NCBI GenBank assembly: GCA_913009915.1
Contig: CAJVYZ010000006.1
Coordinates: 1-15,141 of the forward strand
Direction: 5' to 3'
Origin: an uncultured Gemmatimonadota bacterium
Lineage (GTDB): Bacteria; Gemmatimonadota; Gemmatimonadetes; Gemmatimonadales; GWC2-71-9
DNA: 15,141 nucleotides
In this document: positions 6,284 to 15,141 of the stretch, one piece after another
How positions within the stretch are numbered: position 1 is the stretch's first letter
Layout of the letters: each line of letters opens with the position of its first letter
Made by a program: the position numbers and the translations under genes
The notes under the pieces: model-generated
Databases searched by the model: none
What the model saw: only the letters and a program-made list of their open reading frames with translations
What the model was told of the DNA's origin: nothing

Positions 6284-8071
6284 CTAGAAGCGCCGGTGGA
6301 GTCTGAGGGTCAGGCGAACAGGGACGTTGTCGGTCAGCGCCTTGGCCAAGTAGACGCCCACACCTCCGAGGTCGAGTCCCACACCCACGTCGAACTTCCA
6401 CTGGCTCCCTGCCGGGAGCTTACCGGTAGGAATCTGTCCCGGCCCGTCTCCCGCGATCCACGCCGTGCCTGCATCGGCCAGAAAAACCAGATCGGCCTGG
6501 TCGATGGCGATGAGGCGGTCGAGTCCGGCCCGCTCCCGGTCCTCCAGGCGGTAGGCCCAGCCAAACGACAACCTCGTCCTCACTTCCACCTGCAGCGCGA
6601 TGAGCCGGTTGCAGAACGCCGCCTGTGCCTGGTCGTCGAACCTTGGGGGGGCACAGGTGACTTGGCGGAAGCGGTAGCCGGGGAGGAGGTCCGTGCCGCC
6701 GAGCGAGTACCGGCGTTGCACCGGGAGATCGTCGCCACCGACCCACCCCTCGGCGAACAGCCGAGTGGCAACCCGCACGGCCGGACTGATTCGCATATAC
6801 CGGCGGGCGTCGAGGGAAATGCGCCCGAAGCTATATGTCGGGCCGGTCGGGATGGGCCGCCGAATCGAAATCGGGAGCAACAGCGGGGCGACGTCGCCAC
6901 TCCAATTCTGTTGGTACCACGTTTGGACGAACCAACCGGAAGACGGGAACGATGCGCTGTTCCGGGTGTCGAGTGCGAGCCCGACCGTGCCGCTGACGTA
7001 GTGACCGTCGTCGATCAGCGGGTTGGGGCGCCAGCGGTCCGAGTTCCGCAGCAACGACCAGGGGTCGCTGGCCCGCACCGAACGTTCATCCTGGCCGCGC
7101 AATCCCAGCCGGATTCTCAGACTCTGCGCCAGCGAGAGTCCTATGGTGACCCCAATGCCCTCGGCCTGATACCAGTCCCGGTAGTCCCGCTGCAGGATGA
7201 AAGCCGACCAGCCGTTTTCGGATCGGGTAAGAGGTTGTTGCTCGATCCCCACCATCTCACTCCGGGCCACCAGGTCCACCGCCCACCGAAGACCACTGCC
7301 CGAGCGCCAGCCGAGGTCGACGAAGTAGCCCAGATCCTTGCGAAGGTCCGACTGATCTGGCGCCGTGCGCACGATGCCCCGGATTTCGAGTGACAGCGTA
7401 TCCCGGTCCGAGGGCCGCCACTGGAAGATCGGCGCGAAATAGATGGGGAGGCCTTCAACCCGGTTGTACGTCCCGCCCAGGGACAGCTTCAGCGTAGTCT
7501 TGACGTCGCCGACCTGGAAACTTTTCTCGGCGGCCAGCTCGGCCAGGGGCGTTCGTTCCTCGCGCACACGAAGCAAGCCCTCGCTGTCGCGGTACACCTC
7601 GGCGATTTCCGCATAGACGCGGCCGGTGCCCCGGTGGAGGCCGCCGGGTCGGACGACCAAATGGCCTCCGACGACGAGGATATCGCCCGACACCGAGCCG
7701 CCCGGCTGAATGACGACGTCACCGTTGATGACGGTGATCGGCCCTTCGACGGTGCCGGCGATTCTCAGCGTCCCGCGAAACAGCGCCACGGGGCTCAGGA
7801 GCACGGCCCCGGCCGGTACCTCGATGTCGCTGATGAACCGGAGGGTCGTCGTGTCGTTGAATCGCTGTACCACTTCGTCCAATACGCCCGGCGGGAGCGT
7901 CCGGCCCGCTGTCGGCGCGACGGCTGGAGCGTCGGGGTTGATCACGATCACACTGTCCTGGGCCTGGAGCCCAGGGGCGACAGACAGGGTCAGGGCGAGG
8001 GCGACCCCGAGCATGAGGAACGCCGAGCCGTTGGATCGGGGCAGCACTGGAGACTCAGTCGGAGTGGGCAA
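6284..8071 (-). CDS. Bactofilin-like/Omp85-like outer-membrane protein
   Basis: A predicted exported outer-membrane protein of up to 595 aa. A signal peptide (hydrophobic LMLGVALALTLSV, cleavage near GLQAQ) leads into a Gly/Val-rich repeat region (about 90-150, e.g. GDVVIQPGGSVSGDILVVGG) that looks like a bactofilin-type right-handed beta-helix. From about 190 the sequence alternates like a 16-strand-type beta-barrel and includes GGTDLLPGY, similar to the BamA/TamA loop motif (L-R-G-Y) but with Pro for Arg. It ends in RLTLRLHRRF; the terminal Phe is a typical barrel insertion signal. The start is uncertain: TTG 8071 overlaps the response-regulator gene by 17 bases, while ATG 8014 would give a very short uncharged leader. 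Role inferred: envelope assembly or surface structure. Confidence 0.8.
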   Translation of the reverse strand: MPTPTESPVLPRSNGSAFLMLGVALALTLSVAPGLQAQDSVIVINPDAPAVAPTAGRTLPPGVLDEVVQRFNDTTTLRFISDIEVPAGAVLLSPVALFRGTLRIAGTVEGPITVINGDVVIQPGGSVSGDILVVGGHLVVRPGGLHRGTGRVYAEIAEVYRDSEGLLRVREERTPLAELAAEKSFQVGDVKTTLKLSLGGTYNRVEGLPIYFAPIFQWRPSDRDTLSLEIRGIVRTAPDQSDLRKDLGYFVDLGWRSGSGLRWAVDLVARSEMVGIEQQPLTRSENGWSAFILQRDYRDWYQAEGIGVTIGLSLAQSLRIRLGLRGQDERSVRASDPWSLLRNSDRWRPNPLIDDGHYVSGTVGLALDTRNSASFPSSGWFVQTWYQQNWSGDVAPLLLPISIRRPIPTGPTYSFGRISLDARRYMRISPAVRVATRLFAEGWVGGDDLPVQRRYSLGGTDLLPGYRFRQVTCAPPRFDDQAQAAFCNRLIALQVEVRTRLSFGWAYRLEDRERAGLDRLIAIDQADLVFLADAGTAWIAGDGPGQIPTGKLPAGSQWKFDVGVGLDLGGVGVYLAKALTDNVPVRLTLRLHRRF

Positions 8072-9434
8072 CGGAGCTGGCCGTGATGCCTAGGCGTTTG
8101 AGCCGGCGGTAGAGGTTGCCGCGATCGGTCTGAAGGATGCGGGCCGCCTCGGCCACGTTCCCGCTCGCCTTGGTAATCGCGCCGACGATCAGGGACCTTT
8201 CGTAGTCGTCCAGCGCGTCGGTGAGAGAGCGCGACAGTAGTAGAGCCGGCACCGGATCACCCCCATCCACCACGGTCATCGCCAAGGGCAGGACTTGTTG
8301 CACCCGGGTGGCGTCGATATCGGGCCCACCAAGGATGGTGAGCCGTTCGATGATGTTGGCCAACTCGCGCACGTTGCCGGGCCAGGCGTACGTCATCATC
8401 AACTCCAAGGCGTCCTGGGTAAACCGCGGAGGCTTCCGGGGTCGAATCCGGGTTGCCAGGTGTTCCACCAGGGCCGGAAGGTCCTCGATTCGCTCTCGTA
8501 AGGTGGGAACGTGTACCGGGAACACGTGAAGGCGGAAGAACAAGTCCTGCCGAAACGTGCCTTCCGAGACGGCCTGGGTCAGGTCGTGATTGGTCGCGGC
8601 AATGATCCGTACATCGACCGGCACGGTCGACTCGCCGCCGACCCGCTCCACTTCGTTGGTCTCCAGGGTGCGGAGCAGCTTGGCTCGGGCCTCGAGACTG
8701 AGATCCCCGACTTCGTCGAGGAACAAGGTGCCCCCGCTGGCCAGCTCGAATCGCCCCAGTCGGCGGTCGGTCGCGCCGGTAAAGGCGCCGCGCTCGTGTC
8801 CGAACATCTCCGATTCGACGAGATCGCGAGGAATGGCCGCGCAGTTGACCGTCACGAACGGCCCGGTCTGGCGCGGGCTCGCGTAGTGGATGGCGGCGGC
8901 GACGAGTTCCTTCCCGGTGCCCGACTCGCCGGTGATCAATACCCGCGTGTCGGTGGGACCCACTTGGGCGATCAGCTCCCGGACCGCCTGCAAGCTTCGG
9001 CTGTCGCCCACCAATTCCGTCCGTGGCATCACCGCTTCCCGCAACGCACGATTCTCCGCCCGCGCGAGATACAACTCGATGGCCCCTTCGATCGTGACCA
9101 GTACACTCTCGGGACCCAGCGGCTTCTCGAGAAACTGAAACGCCCCTAGTTTGGTGGCGCGTACCGCGTCGGCGATGTTCGCCTTGCCGCTCATCATGAT
9201 CACCGGTACGTCGACGCCCCGGTGGCGCAGTTCCTTCAGCGTGGAGATGCCGTCCGGACCCGGTGGCATGAGGAAATCGAGCATGATGACGTCGGGCGGG
9301 AACCGCTCGGCGGTGGCCAGGGCAGACCCGCTGTTTTCCGCTTCGTGGACCTCGTACCCTTCAGCCCGCAGCAGAGCCGCCAGCATCCGCCGGATGTTGG
9401 CCTCATCGTCTACCAGCAGCACTCGTTGAGCCAT
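8055..9434 (-). CDS. NtrX/NtrC-type sigma-54 response regulator
   Basis: Cytoplasmic transcription activator of 459 aa. The receiver domain (1-120) has the acidic pair Asp9/Asp10, phospho-acceptor Asp53 in MLDFLMP and Lys104 in FLEKP. The AAA+ domain has Walker A GESGTGKE (169-176), the sigma-54 contact loop GAFTGA (216-221), Walker B GTLFLDE (235-241) and the YAWPGNVREL block. A Fis-type helix-turn-helix (NVAEAARILQTDRGNLYRRLKRLG) ends the protein. Architecture and pairing with the upstream kinase fit NtrX. It should activate sigma-54 promoters when phosphorylated. The kinase gene ends 58 bases upstream, and the next gene overlaps its 3' end. The start codon lies inside an inverted repeat. 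Confidence 0.95.
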   Translation of the reverse strand: MAQRVLLVDDEANIRRMLAALLRAEGYEVHEAENSGSALATAERFPPDVIMLDFLMPPGPDGISTLKELRHRGVDVPVIMMSGKANIADAVRATKLGAFQFLEKPLGPESVLVTIEGAIELYLARAENRALREAVMPRTELVGDSRSLQAVRELIAQVGPTDTRVLITGESGTGKELVAAAIHYASPRQTGPFVTVNCAAIPRDLVESEMFGHERGAFTGATDRRLGRFELASGGTLFLDEVGDLSLEARAKLLRTLETNEVERVGGESTVPVDVRIIAATNHDLTQAVSEGTFRQDLFFRLHVFPVHVPTLRERIEDLPALVEHLATRIRPRKPPRFTQDALELMMTYAWPGNVRELANIIERLTILGGPDIDATRVQQVLPLAMTVVDGGDPVPALLLSRSLTDALDDYERSLIVGAITKASGNVAEAARILQTDRGNLYRRLKRLGITASSVAHSD

Positions 9435-9475
9435 GGATGGAAGATACTAGCGGCGTGTCATTTTGACATCCATGG
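9431..9475 (-). promoter_or_regulatory. Inverted repeat over response-regulator start codon
   Basis: CCATGGATG (9431-9439) and CATCCATGG (9467-9475) are perfect 9-bp complements with a 27-base spacer; on the mRNA the 3' arm contains the ATG of the response regulator. A palindrome TGTCA-TTT-TGACA (9456-9468) lies partly inside and overlaps one arm. The structure could fold over the start codon or serve as an operator. A tiny frame (ATG at 9474, eight codons to TAG) precedes the gene. The role is inferred. Confidence 0.35.
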
Positions 9476-9492
9476 TCAGGAAGCCAGGTGGC

Positions 9493-10695
9493 CTAGGGCT
9501 GTGACTCCGGTGGCAGGGCGGGGAGGGTGATGACGAAGGTGGCCCCACCGCCCTGAGTGTCCTCGATACGGATGTCGCCGGAGTGTTGCTCCACCGCCTG
9601 CTTGACCAAGGCAAGCCCCAGTCCGGTGCCCTCGGCCTTGCCGGTGACGTAGGGATCGAAGATGCCCGCCCGCTCCGGGGCGGGGATACCCGGGCCGTCG
9701 TCGGCCACCCGGACCACCGTGGCCCGGTTCGACCCGTGGACGGAAACCGCCAGATGCCCGGTACCGCCGGTGGCCTCGACTGCGTTGCGCAGCACGTTGC
9801 CGAAGGCCCTGCGGAGCGGGTCGTAGTGCCCCACGATCGACGCCTCGGTGGCCTCCAGCATAAGGTCCACGGTCATCGAGTCGGGCACGACCGACCGTAC
9901 CAGCTCGCCCAGCAACTCGTTGACGTCGATCTCGGCTGGTGGCCCAACGGGTAGCCGCCCAAAATCGGTAAACTCTCTGGCCAGCTGTTCGAGCTGCGCG
10001 GCCTCGGCTTCCAGGACCTCCAGCGACTCGGCCTGGTCCGCACCCGCGGTTCGCTGCAGCTGGGCGATGGCGAACCTGATCGGCGTCAGCGGGTTTTTCA
10101 TTTCGTGCGCAACGCGCCGGGCCACTTCGCGGAACGCTCTGAGGCGCTCGGCTTCGAGTTCCCGGCTCCGGCCGGCCGCCAACTCGCCGGCCATGTCTCT
10201 CAGGGCCGATCGCAGCGCCGCGAACTCGGGAGCTCCCCGGGTGGGTGGACCTTCGGGGAGCGGCTGACTCTGCCGGATCCGATCCGTCCAGCCGACCAGC
10301 TCGTTGATGGGTCGGCTGAGCTGTCGGGAGAGATGACCGGCGAGTATCATGGACGCGTACACCAGAATGGCGCCGACGATCATGATGGCGATGGCCAGGC
10401 CGGTCGAGTAGTAGCCCATGTACACCAGGGACCGTTGCGCTTCCGCCAAGGCTTGGTTCAGCGCCTCTACCTCCGTGGCGAACGCCTGGCGATCATCGGG
10501 GGAAAGAGCGGTGGTGTCGACCGACTCGATGACCAGGCGGCCGGCGGTGCCGATCCGCTCCAGGGCCAGGGCGGTCGATCCGGTCGGGCTGGTTGCCTGG
10601 AGGGTGAAGGCCCAGCCAACGATGAGGGCGGTCGTGGGGAGGGCTCCGAGGAGGACGAGGATGCCGAGGATGCGGCTGCGGAAGGACAGCGCCAT
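9493..10695 (-). CDS. NtrY-like sensor histidine kinase
   Basis: Inner-membrane sensor kinase of 400 aa. Two membrane segments (about 8-30 and 95-120: STGLAIAIMIVGAILVYASM) bracket a short periplasmic loop with a helix rich in Ala and Glu. A HAMP-like linker follows (LSRQLSRPINELVGWTDRI). The dimerisation/phosphotransfer domain has His197 in VAHEMKNPLTPI, the NtrY/NtrB-type H-box. The ATPase domain has the N-box near FGNVLRNAVEA, G1 ADDGPGIP and G2 GTGLGLALV. ATG 10695 is chosen because the upstream extension is His/Pro-rich and lacks family features. Its likely partner is the response regulator next door. Upstream TTTAAA lies only a few bases before the ATG, and no Shine-Dalgarno is visible. 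Confidence 0.93.
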   Translation of the reverse strand: MALSFRSRILGILVLLGALPTTALIVGWAFTLQATSPTGSTALALERIGTAGRLVIESVDTTALSPDDRQAFATEVEALNQALAEAQRSLVYMGYYSTGLAIAIMIVGAILVYASMILAGHLSRQLSRPINELVGWTDRIRQSQPLPEGPPTRGAPEFAALRSALRDMAGELAAGRSRELEAERLRAFREVARRVAHEMKNPLTPIRFAIAQLQRTAGADQAESLEVLEAEAAQLEQLAREFTDFGRLPVGPPAEIDVNELLGELVRSVVPDSMTVDLMLEATEASIVGHYDPLRRAFGNVLRNAVEATGGTGHLAVSVHGSNRATVVRVADDGPGIPAPERAGIFDPYVTGKAEGTGLGLALVKQAVEQHSGDIRIEDTQGGGATFVITLPALPPESQP

Positions 10696-10802
10696 GATGT
10701 TTAAAGCTACAGGGTCGTGGGGTAGGGTGATACCGGGATGGTGCGGGAGGGCGACATGATGGTCCGTGAACTGATGGTACAGCGCGTGCGATGATGGCCC
10801 GA

Positions 10803-10830
10803 AGGATGCTATACTTCCGGAGGATGCTAT
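10803..10830 (+). promoter_or_regulatory. Extended -10 promoter with direct repeats
   Basis: TGCTATACT (10807-10815) matches an extended -10 element, TGn followed by TATACT. It lies within a 10-bp direct repeat AGGATGCTAT at 10803-10812 and 10821-10830, whose 18-base period spans about two helical turns. A start near 10822 would place the leader-recognition gene at 10860 correctly downstream. A good -35 is lacking, as expected for extended -10 promoters. The repeats could be activator or repressor half-sites. Confidence 0.45.
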
Positions 10831-10859
10831 GCCATGGTGCGGCACCTTCTACTTGGACT

Positions 10860-11174
10860 ATGACCAGAAACGACGATCAGGCATTCGATGCCGGGGACGA
10901 CGAAGTGTTGCCAATGACCAACCCTCGAGTCGTGTTCTGCGCTGTTGAGGATGGCGCCGTTCTGCTATCCACGGCCGATGAGGTCTATTTCGGCCTCAAC
11001 GAGGTCGGGGTGCGAGTGTGGCAGATGCTCCCGCCCCACCACACGACGGTTCGTCAGGTGTGTGACAGTTTGTTGGAGGAGTACCCTGATGCCGTGGCCG
11101 AGGAGGTCTTGGCGGACGTAAGGGAACTGCTCCAGCAGCTGAGAGAGCACGGTCTGGTGCACGCCGCCGCCTAG
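10860..11174 (+). CDS. Lasso peptide B1: PqqD-like leader-binding RRE protein
   Basis: A PqqD-family RiPP recognition element that should bind the precursor leader and present it to the peptidase and cyclase. The fold signature is clear: VVFCAVEDGAVLLSTADEVYFGLNEVGVRVWQML (beta-hairpin plus first helix, written here by its key residues D-G-A-V-L, L-N-E-V-G and V-W), then a helix pair VRQVCDSLLEEYP and EEVLADVRELLQQLREHGLV. From ATG 10860 it has 104 aa; ATG 10914 gives 86 aa and a shorter acidic N-terminus, and ATGs further upstream would precede or overlap the predicted promoter. No Shine-Dalgarno favours one. It is separated from B2 by 348 bases but belongs functionally to the lasso cluster. 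Confidence 0.88.
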   Translation: MTRNDDQAFDAGDDEVLPMTNPRVVFCAVEDGAVLLSTADEVYFGLNEVGVRVWQMLPPHHTTVRQVCDSLLEEYPDAVAEEVLADVRELLQQLREHGLVHAAA

Positions 11175-11522
11175 CCTGCCCGGTCATCGATGGGCCCGCC
11201 ACACCGTCGAATCACGACCGCATGAGTCAACCCGACGAGCAGGGTCCCCTGTGGCGGATGGTCCGCTTCCATGACCAACCTGTAGTCTGTTCGCGACAAT
11301 TCAGCCGTTTGCCGCACCGCCCGATCGCTGACTGTGATTGTAACATGTTGTAGTTAAACGTGTTATGTAGCTCGGTGCCGGTTCTGTTGGCAGCCTCCAC
11401 GGCCCCCTCCTTGGCCCGAACCATGCCGATTGATAACCCGTAACTAGGGGCGCCATGGATGTCGTACCCTTCGTTCCCTTGCCAGATTGATGATCTGCCT
11501 TCCCGGGCTTCGGAGTCCCACG
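11175..11522 (+). other. Non-coding gap between lasso B1 and B2
   Basis: No convincing gene is present. A 43-codon frame at 11222-11353 has no Shine-Dalgarno and no recognised motif. An AT-rich patch at about 11331-11370 stands out from the GC-rich surroundings and contains the imperfect inverted repeat TAACATG (11341-11347)/CGTGTTA (11359-11365). TTGTAA (11338-11343) and TGTTAT (11361-11366), 17 bases apart, could be a weak -35/-10 pair for the B2-C-A-kinase unit. Apart from GGAG at 11512-11515 before B2, nothing else is seen. Confidence 0.5.
11338..11366 (+). promoter_or_regulatory. Candidate promoter for lasso B2-C-A-kinase unit
   Basis: TTGTAA and TGTTAT are spaced by 17 bases, each matching four of six consensus positions, inside the only AT-rich patch of the gap. 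The -10 overlaps the right arm of an imperfect TAACATG/CGTGTTA repeat, so regulator binding would affect it. This is a weak match-based prediction. Confidence 0.3.
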
Positions 11523-11972
11523 ATGAAATGGTACCGGATTCCCGCCAAGCTCATCCGTCTGCCCGGCTCTCAGCTAATGGACCTGGCCTTGGCGCAGTGG
11601 TCGATCCTGTGGGCGCAAGGTACGGTCTGGATTCGGCCGCGAGGTGAGTTGCTGCTGATGACGAGTGCCACTGCCGGGGATGACTTTGGCGGCAGTGAAT
11701 CGCGTGCTCGCGCGCTGGACTTGGCCGTTCGCCGGGTGGCCCGCTTCGGAATCCTGCGGCCGCAATGCCTGGTTCGGGCGTTGGCGCTGCATCGATTGCT
11801 GACGCGGGCCGGCGTTCGAGGAAGTCGGGTCCGAATCGGTGTTCGGTTGACCGAAGCGGAATTCTCGGCCCACGCCTGGGTGGTGTGGGGCTCGACCGTA
11901 CTTGGTGACGACCTTCACAGTGTGAGACAATTCGCCGCCATTACCGACGGCCAAGCGGCCACCAGGGCATGA
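11523..11972 (+). CDS. Lasso peptide B2: transglutaminase-like leader peptidase
   Basis: Cysteine protease of the lasso B2 family (149 aa), which cuts the leader from the precursor once B1 has delivered it. The catalytic Cys82 sits in RPQCLVRALALHRLL and His117 in SAHAWVVWG, the usual C/H spacing of the family; Asp129 or Asp130 downstream (LGDDLHS) may complete the triad. The N-terminal helix region (LIRLPGSQLMDLALAQWSIL) is typical. ATG 11523 is chosen because GGAG lies seven bases upstream and the sequence MKWYRIPAKLI fits; a start at 11487 would add 12 residues without support. The stop overlaps the ATG of the cyclase gene (ATGA), indicating tight translational coupling. Confidence 0.93.
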   Translation: MKWYRIPAKLIRLPGSQLMDLALAQWSILWAQGTVWIRPRGELLLMTSATAGDDFGGSESRARALDLAVRRVARFGILRPQCLVRALALHRLLTRAGVRGSRVRIGVRLTEAEFSAHAWVVWGSTVLGDDLHSVRQFAAITDGQAATRA

Positions 11973-13870
11973 GTAGCATCATCGGACGGTTTCGGGGCCA
12001 AGGCGACGACGCGACCTCACGCTTCGAACTCGGACTGAGCCGGTTGGCTCACCGGGGTGCTGAGGACATCGACGCGGTGTCCACTGCCGGCGGGATTCTG
12101 GGAGTCACCCGGTACCGGTGGGAGTGTGACAGCGCCATCGCCGGTCCGGCTATGGTGGCCGCTTGCGGGGAATGGGTAGCCGTCACTGACGCCGCCCTGT
12201 ACTACCAAACGGACCTCCGCCGCTGCCTGCAGCAGGCAGGGGCCTCACTGGAAAGCGGTGCAGCTTCGGCAGCCAGCCTGATCCTGCACGCCTTTCGAAC
12301 CTGGGGGCCCGATTGCCTGCGGTACCTCGAGGGCGATTACGCCTTTGTCGTTTGGAACCGGGCGACGGACGAAGTCTTTGCCGCCCGGGATTTTGCCGGA
12401 AGCCGGCCGCTCTACTGGGCCGAAGTCGGAGGGAGCATCACCGTGACCTCGGGAGTCGAGGCCACGCTTGCCGCCGCGGGACTAGAACGACGGCTCGTCA
12501 CCGGTGCCCTGGCGAGTAACCTGTCGGGATACCCAGCCTTGGGTGAGGGTACCCACTACCAGGGCGTGTACACCCTCCCCGCCGGTTACTACGTGCATTG
12601 GCGGGCCGGTCATACTCGCGAGGTTGCCCGATGGTGGACGCTCCCGTCGGACGGACCAACGCTGCCCGGTGAGGAGGCGGCGCACCAACTCCGTACCCTG
12701 TTGGTGAGAGCGGTCGAGGAACGCGCCCTGCCGGGAGATACCACCGCGGTGTGGCTGAGCGGAGGCTGGGATTCCACCGCGGTCCTCGGCGCCGCCCGGC
12801 AGACAGGAGGAGCGCACCGCTGGCAGGCGGTGTCGATCAGCTACCCGCCGGACGATCCGGGACGGGAGGACGAGTTGATCGCCGGCGCGGCGGAGTTCTG
12901 CTCGGTGCCGGTCGAATGGATCGATTCCGAATCGCTCCCCGTCCTGGCCGAACCGGAGCGTGATCCGTTCGCTCACGCGTTTGCCGGGTGGTTGCGGGGA
13001 TTGGCGACGACGGCGTCGGAGAGTGGCGCCCGGGTGTCGTTGAGCGGGTACGGCGGGGATCAGTTGTTCCAGACGTCTGACGTGTTTCTGGCCGATCTGG
13101 TTCGGCGGGGGCGTTTGGTGGCGCTGGGCCGGGAATGGCTGCATTCTCGATGGCGCGGGGAAGCCATGAGTTTCCTCCGGTGGGCGGTGAAGCCGGCGCT
13201 CCCGGCAGGCATCCGGGCCACGGTGGCGTCACTCAGAGGCGGCGATGGCATGAGCAGCCATCTCGACCGGGCCACTCCTCCATGGGCAACCGTGGATTCC
13301 GGGGAAGCCGCTGTGGCCGGCGCACTCGCCCTCGTGCCGCGAGAACCGGGTGAAGACCACGCGGCCCACGAAATGCGATGGTACCTGACTGATCGGTACT
13401 TCCCGGCCGTCAACTGCGTGGTGGCCGAAGTCGCTCTCGAGTGCGGCACGGAGGTCAGGTCACCGCTGATGGATGAGCGGATCGTCCGGCTGGCGGTGTC
13501 CCGGCCGCAAGAAGAACGGTCCAGCAGGGGCGAGACCAAGCGCCTTCTGCGCCAGGCCATGATGGGGTTGCTGCCGGCCGAGACCCTCGAGCCTCGCACG
13601 CGGCGGACCGGAACGACAGGCGGCTACTTCCATAGAGGGTTGCGGGTTAATGCCGAGTGGGTCCCGGGGTTGTTCAAGCAGTCACGGTTGGCGGACATGG
13701 GGCTCATCCGGCCCGACGTTTTCCTGCGGTGGTGGGAGTGGTTCACCGAAGGAGGAGAAGGGCCGTGGGACGTGGCACTGTGTGCCACGATCCAGACGGA
13801 GCGGTGGCTTCAACGAACCGAAAGTCGCGGTAACCCTACCGCCGCTGATTTGACCGCGGCGGCCCACTAG
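11969..13870 (+). CDS. Lasso peptide C: asparagine-synthetase-like macrolactam synthetase
   Basis: ATP-dependent enzyme (633 aa) that adenylates the Asp/Glu side chain of the core peptide and joins it to the new N-terminus to form the macrolactam. The N-terminal half is a class II glutaminase fold (LAHRGAEDID, then YLEGDYAFVVWNRA), but residue 2 is Ser, so the Cys nucleophile of true AsnB is missing and ammonia production is unlikely. The synthetase half has the PP-loop SGGWDS at 264-269 and SGYGGDQLF from Ser359, where AsnB-type enzymes normally have GGDE; here Gln replaces Glu. The C-terminal region keeps EVRSPLMDERIV and the Lys/Arg-rich ETKRLLRQAM block. It overlaps B2 by four bases, and the precursor gene begins 89 bases downstream. 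Confidence 0.95.
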   Translation: MSSIIGRFRGQGDDATSRFELGLSRLAHRGAEDIDAVSTAGGILGVTRYRWECDSAIAGPAMVAACGEWVAVTDAALYYQTDLRRCLQQAGASLESGAASAASLILHAFRTWGPDCLRYLEGDYAFVVWNRATDEVFAARDFAGSRPLYWAEVGGSITVTSGVEATLAAAGLERRLVTGALASNLSGYPALGEGTHYQGVYTLPAGYYVHWRAGHTREVARWWTLPSDGPTLPGEEAAHQLRTLLVRAVEERALPGDTTAVWLSGGWDSTAVLGAARQTGGAHRWQAVSISYPPDDPGREDELIAGAAEFCSVPVEWIDSESLPVLAEPERDPFAHAFAGWLRGLATTASESGARVSLSGYGGDQLFQTSDVFLADLVRRGRLVALGREWLHSRWRGEAMSFLRWAVKPALPAGIRATVASLRGGDGMSSHLDRATPPWATVDSGEAAVAGALALVPREPGEDHAAHEMRWYLTDRYFPAVNCVVAEVALECGTEVRSPLMDERIVRLAVSRPQEERSSRGETKRLLRQAMMGLLPAETLEPRTRRTGTTGGYFHRGLRVNAEWVPGLFKQSRLADMGLIRPDVFLRWWEWFTEGGEGPWDVALCATIQTERWLQRTESRGNPTAADLTAAAH

Positions 13871-13890
13871 GATGCCGTGGTCAACCACTA

Positions 13891-13907
13891 TCGGCCACTC
13901 GGGCCGA
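13891..13907 (+). other. Hairpin between cyclase and precursor genes
   Basis: TCGGCC (13891-13896) and GGCCGA (13902-13907) form a perfect 6-bp GC-rich stem with a 5-base loop. A small palindrome GTGGT-CA-ACCAC lies just before it (13877-13888). No T-tract follows, so it is more likely an mRNA-processing or stability element than a terminator. Confidence 0.35.
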
Positions 13908-13945
13908 CACCTTCCCGGGCGGGTGGCTCGGAGTCATTCTTCCAC

Positions 13946-13954
13946 AAGGAGGAG
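13946..13954 (+). promoter_or_regulatory. Strong ribosome binding site for lasso precursor
   Basis: AAGGAGGAG contains the full anti-16S core GGAGG seven bases before the ATG at 13960. It is the best Shine-Dalgarno in the window and fits a precursor that must be made in excess over its enzymes. Confidence 0.85.
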
Positions 13955-13959
13955 CCTCG

Positions 13960-14121
13960 ATGTACCATAAGCCGAAGGTTGAGCGTTTCGGTACAGTCCG
14001 GGAGCTCACCCTAGTGGGCTTCACTGGGGCAACTGATGGGTACACCATCAGTGGTCCCACGACGGGGAATGGGAATAATTACTGCGGGACTGCATCAAAC
14101 CCGTGTCCCACATCCTCGTAG
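13960..14121 (+). CDS. Lasso peptide precursor (A)
   Basis: A 53-residue precursor. The leader begins MYHKPKVERFGTVRELTL: Tyr2-x-x-Pro5, Gly11 and Leu16-Thr17 match the leader positions read by B1 and B2. If Thr17 is the usual -2 Thr, the core starts at Val19 and Asp26 is core position 8; if the more usual Gly1 is preferred, it starts at Gly20 and Asp26 is position 7. Asp26 is the only acidic residue after the leader, so it must be the ring acceptor either way. The tail after the ring is about 27 residues, long for a lasso peptide, rich in Gly, Asn, Thr and Ser, with Cys42 and Cys49 able to form a disulfide. It ends CPTSS. Position between cyclase and kinase genes and the strong ribosome site support it as real. 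Confidence 0.9.
   Translation: MYHKPKVERFGTVRELTLVGFTGATDGYTISGPTTGNGNNYCGTASNPCPTSS
14032..14052 (+). repeat. Perfect inverted repeat inside precursor gene
   Basis: ACTGATGG (14032-14039) and CCATCAGT (14045-14052) are exact complements with a 5-base loop. The element spans precisely codons 25-31, beginning one codon before the predicted ring-acceptor Asp26 codon. Whether it acts in the mRNA or is a coincidence of codon choice is unknown. Confidence 0.6.
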
Positions 14122-14124
14122 CCT

Positions 14125-14156
14125 GCGGGGGGGTAGGGGGCTTGCCCCCTACCCGC
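14125..14156 (+). terminator. Strong stem-loop after precursor gene
   Basis: Bases 14131-14140 pair perfectly with 14145-14154 (10 bp, mostly G-C) around a CTTG tetraloop, and GC/GC at 14125-14126 and 14155-14156 extend it past a 4-base bulge. It starts four bases after the precursor stop. There is no proper T-tract, so it is probably a partial terminator or a 3' stabiliser that lets precursor mRNA exceed that of the downstream kinase. Confidence 0.55.
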
Positions 14157-14210
14157 TTCTCGCGGTTTCCCTACGTTCTTGCCACAGCCGACTCCCAGCA
14201 ACCATGATCG

Positions 14211-15141
14211 ATGCCTGACTACGCCGTCTACGGCGGGATCCTTCGTTCCACTATCGACCTGCCGGAACTTCGGCCCGTGGATGAAGCTGCAGCGGAATCG
14301 TCCGCTGGAGACCGGGCGTGGTGTTATAGCCAAACTCCCGGGCCCCCACCCGATATGGATCTGACTGAGCTGGGCAAGGAACCCATCTACGGCAGCGTCC
14401 ACGCCCGGCTCTATCGCTTCGAGGGTGGCTATCGCATCGTCGTCGACGACACCGGTGCTTTCGACGTTACCGACGACGGAACGGCGGTGACCGGGTACCC
14501 CCTCGAGACGGCGTGGCCGGATTTCGTACGGGCTCATCTCATCGGCCGTGTCCTGTCGACCGCGATGTATTTGCAGGGAGTGCTCACGTTACACGGCAGC
14601 GGGGTCGTCATCGGCGGTCGGGCCGTGGCCTTCCTGGCGCCCAAACACCATGGCAAGACCACCCTGGCCCTGTGTCTGACGCGGGCCGGCGGTTCTCTGC
14701 TCACGGATGACACCCTCCCCATCGACGTTCACCGCGCATCCGCCATGGCCGGCGTGCACAGCATGCGGTTGCAACCGGATACTGCCTTGCTTCTCGCGGG
14801 AGAGGGAGGAGGGAAGCGCCAGCGCACGAGGGAAGGGAAAGAGATCCTCGATCACATGCCGGATACGTGGAAGCACGAAACCACCGCAGCCCTCGATGCG
14901 GTGTATCTGTTGACCCCGGCGGGGGCCTTCACTGATGGACGCGTCGTCGACCGCCAGCCTCTTCCCGGTGCCCCTGCCGCCGTGAGTGTCGTGGGGCATG
15001 CCAAGATTGCAGAAATGCTCGGGCATTGGGGGGCGCAGACGCTGCTCGAGCAGGCGGCGCTGCTTACCAGCCGGGTGCCGGTGGCCCTGCCCGCCGCGGG
15101 TCGCGGCCCCTGCCGACCTGAAGGGCGGGGTGCAGGGGTAG
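14211..15141 (+). CDS. HPr-kinase-like lasso tailoring kinase, 3'-incomplete
   Basis: An HprK-related protein open from ATG 14211 to the contig end. The N-terminus (YAVYGGILRSTIDLPEL) follows the Y-x-x-x-G...LPEL pattern of this group. LHGSGVVIGGRAVAFLAPKHHGKTTLA (key residues His128, Ala143-Pro-Lys-His-His-Gly-Lys149-Thr) is the P-loop, with Ala in place of the first Gly, and LLTDD (Asp166, Asp167) the metal-binding segment. In the paeninodin cluster such a kinase phosphorylates the C-terminal Ser of the precursor; the precursor here also ends in Ser-Ser. No Shine-Dalgarno is evident. The frame after about 15080 becomes Arg/Gly/Pro-rich and unlike the family; the +1 frame ends in TAG at 15139-15141, so an indel near the contig end is possible. 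Confidence 0.85.
   Translation, partial: MPDYAVYGGILRSTIDLPELRPVDEAAAESSAGDRAWCYSQTPGPPPDMDLTELGKEPIYGSVHARLYRFEGGYRIVVDDTGAFDVTDDGTAVTGYPLETAWPDFVRAHLIGRVLSTAMYLQGVLTLHGSGVVIGGRAVAFLAPKHHGKTTLALCLTRAGGSLLTDDTLPIDVHRASAMAGVHSMRLQPDTALLLAGEGGGKRQRTREGKEILDHMPDTWKHETTAALDAVYLLTPAGAFTDGRVVDRQPLPGAPAAVSVVGHAKIAEMLGHWGAQTLLEQAALLTSRVPVALPAAGRGPCRPEGRGAGV

Follow-up and report, generated by a model that had tools for sequence, protein, structure and literature searches.

The window, by which we mean the whole 15,141-nucleotide stretch analysed here, carries five genes on the + strand between position 10860 and the contig end, which an ORF and coordinate check places in the order B1, B2, C, A and K. 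B1 (10860..11174, 104 aa) encodes a PqqD-like RiPP recognition element and is followed by a 348-bp spacer (11175..11522, assigned to no strand) that is non-coding as far as seen. The reading frame of B2 (11523..11972, 149 aa), encoding a leader peptidase, overlaps with that of C (11969..13870, 633 aa), encoding a predicted AsnB-like lasso cyclase. Downstream lie the precursor gene A (13960..14121, 53 aa), with an AAGGAGG motif located just 5' of its start, and K (14211..15141), which encodes a kinase assigned to the HprK/PEPCK fold by profile and fold model and is still open at the contig end. Window scans returned two promoter-like matches against 0.7 expected and two terminator-like matches against 2.4 expected, too weak for use, and a leader-shaped pattern search found no second precursor in the B1-B2 spacer or the rest of the window.

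B1 had been described in the initial annotation as a PqqD-like leader binder, and it matches PF05402 (PqqD) at 67 bits against a cut-off of 23.4; the lasso PqqD models NF033530 and NF033536 also match, but under their cut-offs. Fifteen homologues of B1 were aligned. A search of PDB sequences returned TbiB1 as the best solved chain (E 1.5e-05) and TfuB1 as a marginal one (0.4), both of which we take to be lasso RREs. The C/H leader peptidase proposed for B2 agrees with its matches to NF033537 (lasso_biosyn_B2; 56.8 bits, cut-off 33) and PF13471 (62 bits). Its triad of Cys82 (CLVRA), His117 (AHAWV) and the Asp of an LGD motif is conserved, Cys in 14/14 aligned rows covering that site and His and Asp in 15/15; B2 alone found no match among PDB sequences. 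The spacer separating the two genes is odd, because in 27 of the 28 relatives with both genes on the same strand, the start of the B2 frame lies ahead of the B1 end or no more than 3 bp from it. Exceptions to this tight spacing are one relative in which the genes lie far apart (L044) and the window itself. The spacer contains no precursor-like ORF and no Rfam match, and has no second copy in the window's own assembly; it may contain a promoter that serves B2 and the genes after it, or may stem from an insertion at this site.

C, previously annotated as AsnB-like and devoid of the glutaminase Cys, matches PF00733 (Asn_synthase) at 106.2 bits and PF13537 (GATase_7) at 64.5 bits. Since it starts MSSII, it is without Cys2 of asparagine synthetase, and the hallmark of those enzymes, an N-terminal Cys nucleophile after Met1, is absent. 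The ATP-PPi motif SGGWDST is in place, and SGG.DS is invariant among 14 aligned C proteins. A placement of C among asparagine synthetases, named in the initial annotation as an outcome contrary to the lasso reading, was not found: the best NCBIfam score is that of lasso cyclase NF033535 (155 bits, cut-off 525), with asparagine synthase TIGR01536 slightly lower (145 bits, cut-off 267), yet C lies under both cut-offs and passes no other in NCBIfam. A profile of the 14 proteins searched against PDB sequences ranked a hydroxyamidotransferase (7ylz) at the top, followed by asparagine synthetases, and no chain named lasso cyclase was among the solved chains that it found.

A 53-aa precursor with lasso leader motifs had been proposed after the cyclase, and A at 13960..14121 encodes a peptide that matches NF033521 (lasso_leader_L3) at 22.3 bits against a cut-off of 19. 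A lack of lasso-model matches to B2 and the precursor, the other outcome named as contrary, did not occur, both being above cut-off. The leader (MYHKPKVERFGTVRELTL, 13960..14013, + strand) has Tyr at -17, Pro at -14, Gly at -8 and Thr at -2, and the predicted core (VGFTGATDGYTISGPTTGNGNNYCGTASNPCPTSS, 14014..14121 with the stop codon, + strand) spans 35 aa, with a ring from Val1 to Asp8, Cys24, Cys31 and Ser35 as its last residue; Asp8 is the sole acidic residue in this core. In nine homologues of A from the database (67-89% identity) the leader is largely retained, and Asp26 of the precursor, the last Ser and the two Cys are present in 9/9. We then widened the comparison with a leader-shaped pattern, which fixes the leader and not the core, and obtained 40 distinct precursors, including the window's, over 46 loci; the pattern found none in L047, L048 and L071, each cut at a contig or locus end. 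Gly occupies core residue 2 in 34/40 of these precursors and Asp core position 8 in 31/40, while four have an acidic residue at 9 only, one at 10 only and four none at 7-10. The last residue is Ser in 30/40 and another residue in 10/40, and 37 of the 40 contain 2-3 Cys.

Precursor pairs at 60% identity or above, from 17 of the 46 loci, gave pN/pS values of 0.03-0.54 in 34/34, including 0.28 in both pairs that involve the window's A; the loci were hand-chosen, the pairs are not independent, and the values are rough because pS is high in some pairs (up to 0.84). Judged by these comparisons, A is under purifying selection and its conservation is more than chance. Cys24 and Cys31 both lie beyond the ring and are conserved as a pair, and two Cys in the tail suggest a tail disulfide; in class IV lassos, this bond is thought to be possibly non-enzymatic (PMC9266682). 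The predicted 35-aa core is longer than the 33 residues given for pandonodin (PMC13352647), and cores of 21-42 aa were predicted in a rumen survey (PMC7533575).

The HprK-like kinase of the initial annotation was recovered at the level of the family. As a single sequence, K had no match among PDB sequences and matched HprK-related families weakly (TIGR04352, HprK_rel_A, 18.5 bits against a cut-off of 200), while a profile of 34 members reached solved HPr kinases (E 7.7e-06) and a structure model of K, compared by Foldseek and VIA-align, has the PEPCK/HprK fold. The 50 matches listed by VIA-align are PEPCKs and HPr kinases were seen in the Foldseek matches only, which is evidence neither for differing folds nor for closer PEPCK kinship. 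H128, K149, D166 and D167 are invariant in 34/34 aligned kinases, and His-Lys-Asp-Asp is the motif given for lasso kinases (PMC9266682). PadeK is described as acting on the last Ser prior to folding (PMC9266682; PMC8498205), and the presence of K together with Ser at the last position of 30/40 precursors suggests phosphorylation of the paeninodin type. By this analogy the product is probably phosphorylated on its last Ser; BsfK, a characterised kinase that modifies Ser3 and not the last Ser (PMC10368454), serves as a warning against certainty on the site.

The claim of a complete synthesis set stands for A, B1, B2 and C and falls short at K, which is either truncated at the contig end or damaged there: in alignment, its final 19 residues have no counterpart in relatives. 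Such a divergent end, along with a B1-B2 spacer unlike 27/28 relatives, could mark a decaying lasso cluster that has lost its function, a reading compatible with the others. A, B2 and C are nonetheless open with all motifs present, and because K stops at the final bases of a contig in a fragmented assembly, and the contig's other end carries adapter sequence, an assembly error is as likely as decay. We consider decay of the cluster very unlikely. The family matches of K also bear on whether this is a lasso system at all, as opposed to a non-lasso PqqD/HprK/AsnB system (an HPr-rel-A-like or exopolysaccharide amidotransferase set) beside a small peptide. C is near asparagine synthase models and under the lasso cut-off, K and B1 weakly match HPr-rel-A models, and TIGR04352 is matched by 34/34 kinases at E <= 0.01 (best 1.1e-11), all of which would suit such a system. 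The HPr-rel-A models themselves score below cut-off in the window, however (TIGR04352, 18.5 against 200 bits; PqqD_rel_X, TIGR04353, 20.4 against 35 bits), B2 and the leader score above those of lasso models, the precursor architecture is conserved, and a kinase and a nucleotidyltransferase are already described as lasso tailoring genes (PMC9266682, PMC7533575). We consider a non-lasso system very unlikely and retain the lasso reading.

Where the core begins was judged from the leader register of BsfA, with Tyr at -17, Pro at -14, Leu at -12 and Ile at -2, followed by Gly1 (PMC10368454). Placed in this register, the window's A has Tyr2, Pro5, Val7 and Thr17, and Val19 therefore becomes core residue 1, giving a predicted ring of Val1-Asp8. 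Core residue 1, taken as the second after Thr, is Ile in 8 of the 40 precursors, Val in 7, Ala in 7, Gln in 5, Leu in 4, Trp in 3, Asp in 2, and Gly, Cys, Phe and Thr in 1 each. A 2025 table of 62 lassos has only G, S, A, C, L or W as residue 1, Gly being the commonest (PMC12427821), and 24/40 precursors would begin with Ile, Val, Gln, Asp, Phe or Thr, none of which starts any of the 62. The seven with Ala have the same residue 1 as paeninodin and pseudomycoidin, both kinase-made and tabled as starting Ala1-Gly2 (PMC12427821). Metanodin, with Asn1, was published as the first such lasso (PMC12670498); for Val1, Ile1 or Phe1 lassos, no paper on lasso peptides was among the literature matches listed, one of which, on a lantibiotic methyltransferase, mentions them.

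In an alternative reading of the same operon, B2 would cut before Gly20 and leave a 34-aa core whose 7-residue ring runs from Gly1 to Asp7, with Thr at -3. The Gly at this position is nearly invariant (34/40) and the residue preceding it variable, Gly is the commonest first residue in the table of 62 (PMC12427821), ring sizes of 7-9 count as permissible (PMC8498205), and Thr is given as invariant at -3 in a rumen survey built on Gly1 (PMC7533575). Three relatives (L042, L068 and L086) also favour the Gly start, because their rings then have 8 residues, as opposed to 10, 9 and 9 with the start set by Thr at -2. Cutting before Gly20, however, violates the rule of Thr at -2 as well as the register with Tyr at -17 (PMC10368454), and the Gly rule of the rumen survey would also cut between TMA and GPG in a paeninodin-like precursor (PMC7533575), whereas paeninodin itself is tabled with an Ala-Gly start (PMC12427821). 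We regard the Gly20 start as unlikely and clearly prefer the Val start, with the ring Val1-Asp8. As read from the sequence, the core departs either from the usual residue 1 or from the Thr(-2) rule.

A relative of C at 35% identity or more occurs in at least 18 of 151 genomes (the window's own and 150 relatives), two of them fragmentary (G147 and G122). Scanning a contig collection with C alone gave no relative, while scanning it with the C alignment did find relatives: among the best 80 of at least 451 loci, 27 (L061-L086 and L094) encode a C that is 34-44% identical, and their titles name Gemmatimonadetes, Gemmatimonadota, Gemmatimonadales, Gemmatimonadaceae, Gemmatimonas or Longimicrobiales, the last of which we count into Gemmatimonadota. 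C identity in the other 53 of the best 80 is at most 31%, and these come from many phyla, one (L132) being also from Gemmatimonadetes. For gene order, the 46 loci including the window were reduced to 38 groups (the window and 37 others, some incomplete) by merging identical cyclases, and genes within 9 kb of C were counted; L047 and L048 are two contig ends of one genome and may be a single cluster. Across the 38 groups, A was found in 35, K in 34, B1 in 31, an ABC ATPase in 31, B2 in 30, an ABC-2 permease in 28 and an NTP_transf_5 gene in 27, and the order B1-B2-C-A-K was seen in 15/38, the window among them.

In 25 of the 34 groups having K, this gene is directly followed by the ABC ATPase and then the ABC-2 permease, and the order K, ABC ATPase, ABC-2 permease, NTP_transf_5 occurs in 21 groups. 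The K groups that depart from the former arrangement comprise the window, L039, L068 and L075, which are cut off at 9 kb or where the locus ends, L044 and L062, which have a different order, and L034, L043 and L084, with no exporter in the fetched stretch. Pfam searches of tested members identified ABC_tran in L031 and L033, ABC2_membrane in L031, L032 and L044, and NTP_transf_5 in L031, L034 and L039. Because this arrangement is common in relatives, the window's contig can be seen to end where the exporter usually starts. The earlier suggestion that export lies beyond the contig end is thereby strengthened; by synteny, an exporter past this point is well supported and an NTP_transf_5 gene is also predicted just past it. 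No exporter adjoining K was shown in the window's own assembly (76.5% complete, 676 contigs), which returned 40 ABC ATPase matches (best 38%) and one weak permease (28%), together with, for NTP_transf_5, a pair of PF14907 genes (contigs C29 and C309), neither shown adjoining K. PsmN has been linked to hexose addition (PMC9266682), and in rumen lasso clusters, genes for an HPr kinase and a nucleotidyltransferase are described alongside conservation of the C-terminal Ser region (PMC7533575).

The gene set, the catalytic motifs, the operon order in relatives and the conservation of the leader, of Asp8, of the Cys pair and of the last Ser are all supported by sequence. We read this as a real lasso operon of ordinary logic, belonging to a kinase-bearing and little-studied family of a single phylum, with an unusual ring start. 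In lasso biosynthesis B1 binds the leader, B2 cuts it and C closes the lactam. The cleavage site, threading, disulfide, phosphorylation, hexosylation and export, as well as any biological activity, are inferred, and we propose the following scheme. B1 would bind the YxxPxV...G...T leader of A, and B2 would cut after Leu18, placing Thr17 at -2. K would phosphorylate the last Ser of the precursor ahead of ring closure, in which C would activate the Asp8 side chain and close an 8-residue ring onto the Val1 amino group, around the tail. A Cys24-Cys31 disulfide would then form in the tail, probably during export by the ABC ATPase and ABC-2 permease predicted beyond the contig end, and the NTP_transf_5 enzyme could attach a hexose to that phosphate. 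That this Gemmatimonadota locus is a lasso-peptide operon working by this proposed ring, phosphorylation, disulfide and export scheme is, in our judgement, likely.

Among known systems, paeninodin and pseudomycoidin of Firmicutes (padeK, psmK and psmN) share with the window an HprK-like kinase with His-Lys-Asp-Asp, a last Ser and Gly2; paeninodin also has a split B, and psmN of pseudomycoidin parallels the NTP_transf_5 gene of the window's relatives. The paeninodin ring has 9 residues. Both peptides differ from the window's in Ala1, a first Asp at 9, the lack of Cys and a length of 23-24 aa (PMC12427821), as against the predicted Val1 and Asp8, two tail Cys and 35 aa in another phylum, and the window's relatives differ further in their ABC-2 type exporter. 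Pandonodin, a class IV lasso of 33 aa with a tail disulfide, resembles the predicted product in its long tail containing two Cys (PMC13352647, PMC12427821); it is proteobacterial, has Gly1 and a last Ala (PMC12427821), and is given no tailoring genes past A-D (PMC9266682). The Bsf cluster of Bradymonadales (BsfA/K/B1/B2) has the YxxPxL leader register and a kinase beside its lasso genes, but differs in Ile at -2, Gly1 and Ser3 as kinase target (PMC10368454). Metanodin, from a soil metagenome, resembles the predicted core in a non-canonical, ring-forming residue 1 that stands two positions after a Thr, but has Asn1 and a gammaproteobacterial origin, and its paper never uses the word kinase (PMC12670498).

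Our literature search, of mainly open-access papers, found no dedicated lasso study of Gemmatimonadota or Gemmatimonadetes among the papers listed, each of which names lasso peptides at most 5 times and has neither term in its title; earlier listing of these clusters in genome surveys is possible, and the string 'gemmatimon' is absent from the main text of a 2026 review (PMC13352647). We give about even chances to a phylum-level lasso family in which ring residue 1 varies freely and is in many cases bulky or beta-branched (Ile, Val, Gln, Trp, Phe and others), followed by a near-invariant Gly2, an 8-residue ring to Asp8 and a long, disulfide-closed tail, with a last Ser that is phosphorylated and possibly hexosylated and export by an ABC-2 pair. 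If 24/40 precursors truly start with residues other than those tabled, the substrate rule of lasso cyclases would be widened, and this would help explain how precursor finders that look for Gly1 can overlook genes of this sort; if the cut falls one residue later, the family would break the Thr(-2) rule instead and have 7-residue rings. Kinase-tailored lassos would, if the proposal is true, extend to Gemmatimonadota. The conserved last Ser accompanying a kinase, the two tail Cys, the frequent NTP_transf_5 gene and the atypical core start had all gone unseen in the initial annotation.

The spacer separating the genes for the PqqD-like B1 protein and the leader peptidase B2 (window 11175-11522) sets the lasso cluster of the window apart from 27 of 28 relatives, in which B1 and B2 touch or overlap. 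At the other end of the cluster, the final 19 residues of the HprK/PEPCK-fold kinase K (window 15084-15141) have no homology to relatives; this aberrant end is read as either a frameshift or a misassembly where the contig stops.

The window start (1-176) carries low-complexity G/T runs and sequence that we take to be an Illumina-like adapter, which runs to position 164 and has GCTCTTCCGATCT as its last bases. The minus-strand ORF at 138-1418, TyrRS-like as judged by eye, takes its C-terminal codons from this adapter. Another contig of the same assembly, C309 (locus L050), seems to have an adapter-like end too.

Related loci also display unusual precursors, numbered here from the second residue after the leader Thr (Thr at -2). 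Those at L035:8281-8529 and L045:8682-8876, both on the minus strand, have no acidic residue at core positions 7-10, and that at L080:9734-9997 has Asp9. All three share the motif T..K...GDD/GMD..P.IG farther along, and their leader-core boundary may be shifted. Two precursor genes per cluster were found in L033, L044, L046 and L073; L039/L078 is a double cluster with two copies each of C, A, K and B1 and a single B2, and in L031 (11156-12693) two Ferritin_2 proteins lie between A and B1. The Anaerolineae locus L100 contains K-, B1- and B2-like genes together with a precursor-like ORF (9800-10021) reading TQ-NSFLVSGLD, with Asp9 and a predicted Asn1 start; Asn1 is also the start residue reported for metanodin (PMC12670498).

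Elsewhere in the window's own genome, contig C29 (L049) carries a strong NTP_transf_5 gene (178.7 bits), near an apparent further HprK-like fragment recognised by eye. Directly upstream of B1, on the minus strand, a histidine kinase is paired with a sigma-54 response regulator (8058-10845); the two are NtrX/NtrY-like by domains. Also on the minus strand, domain search revealed an odd pairing within one protein (6287-8071): an Omp85-type barrel and a bactofilin-like N-terminal part, the latter a weak match below the cut-off.
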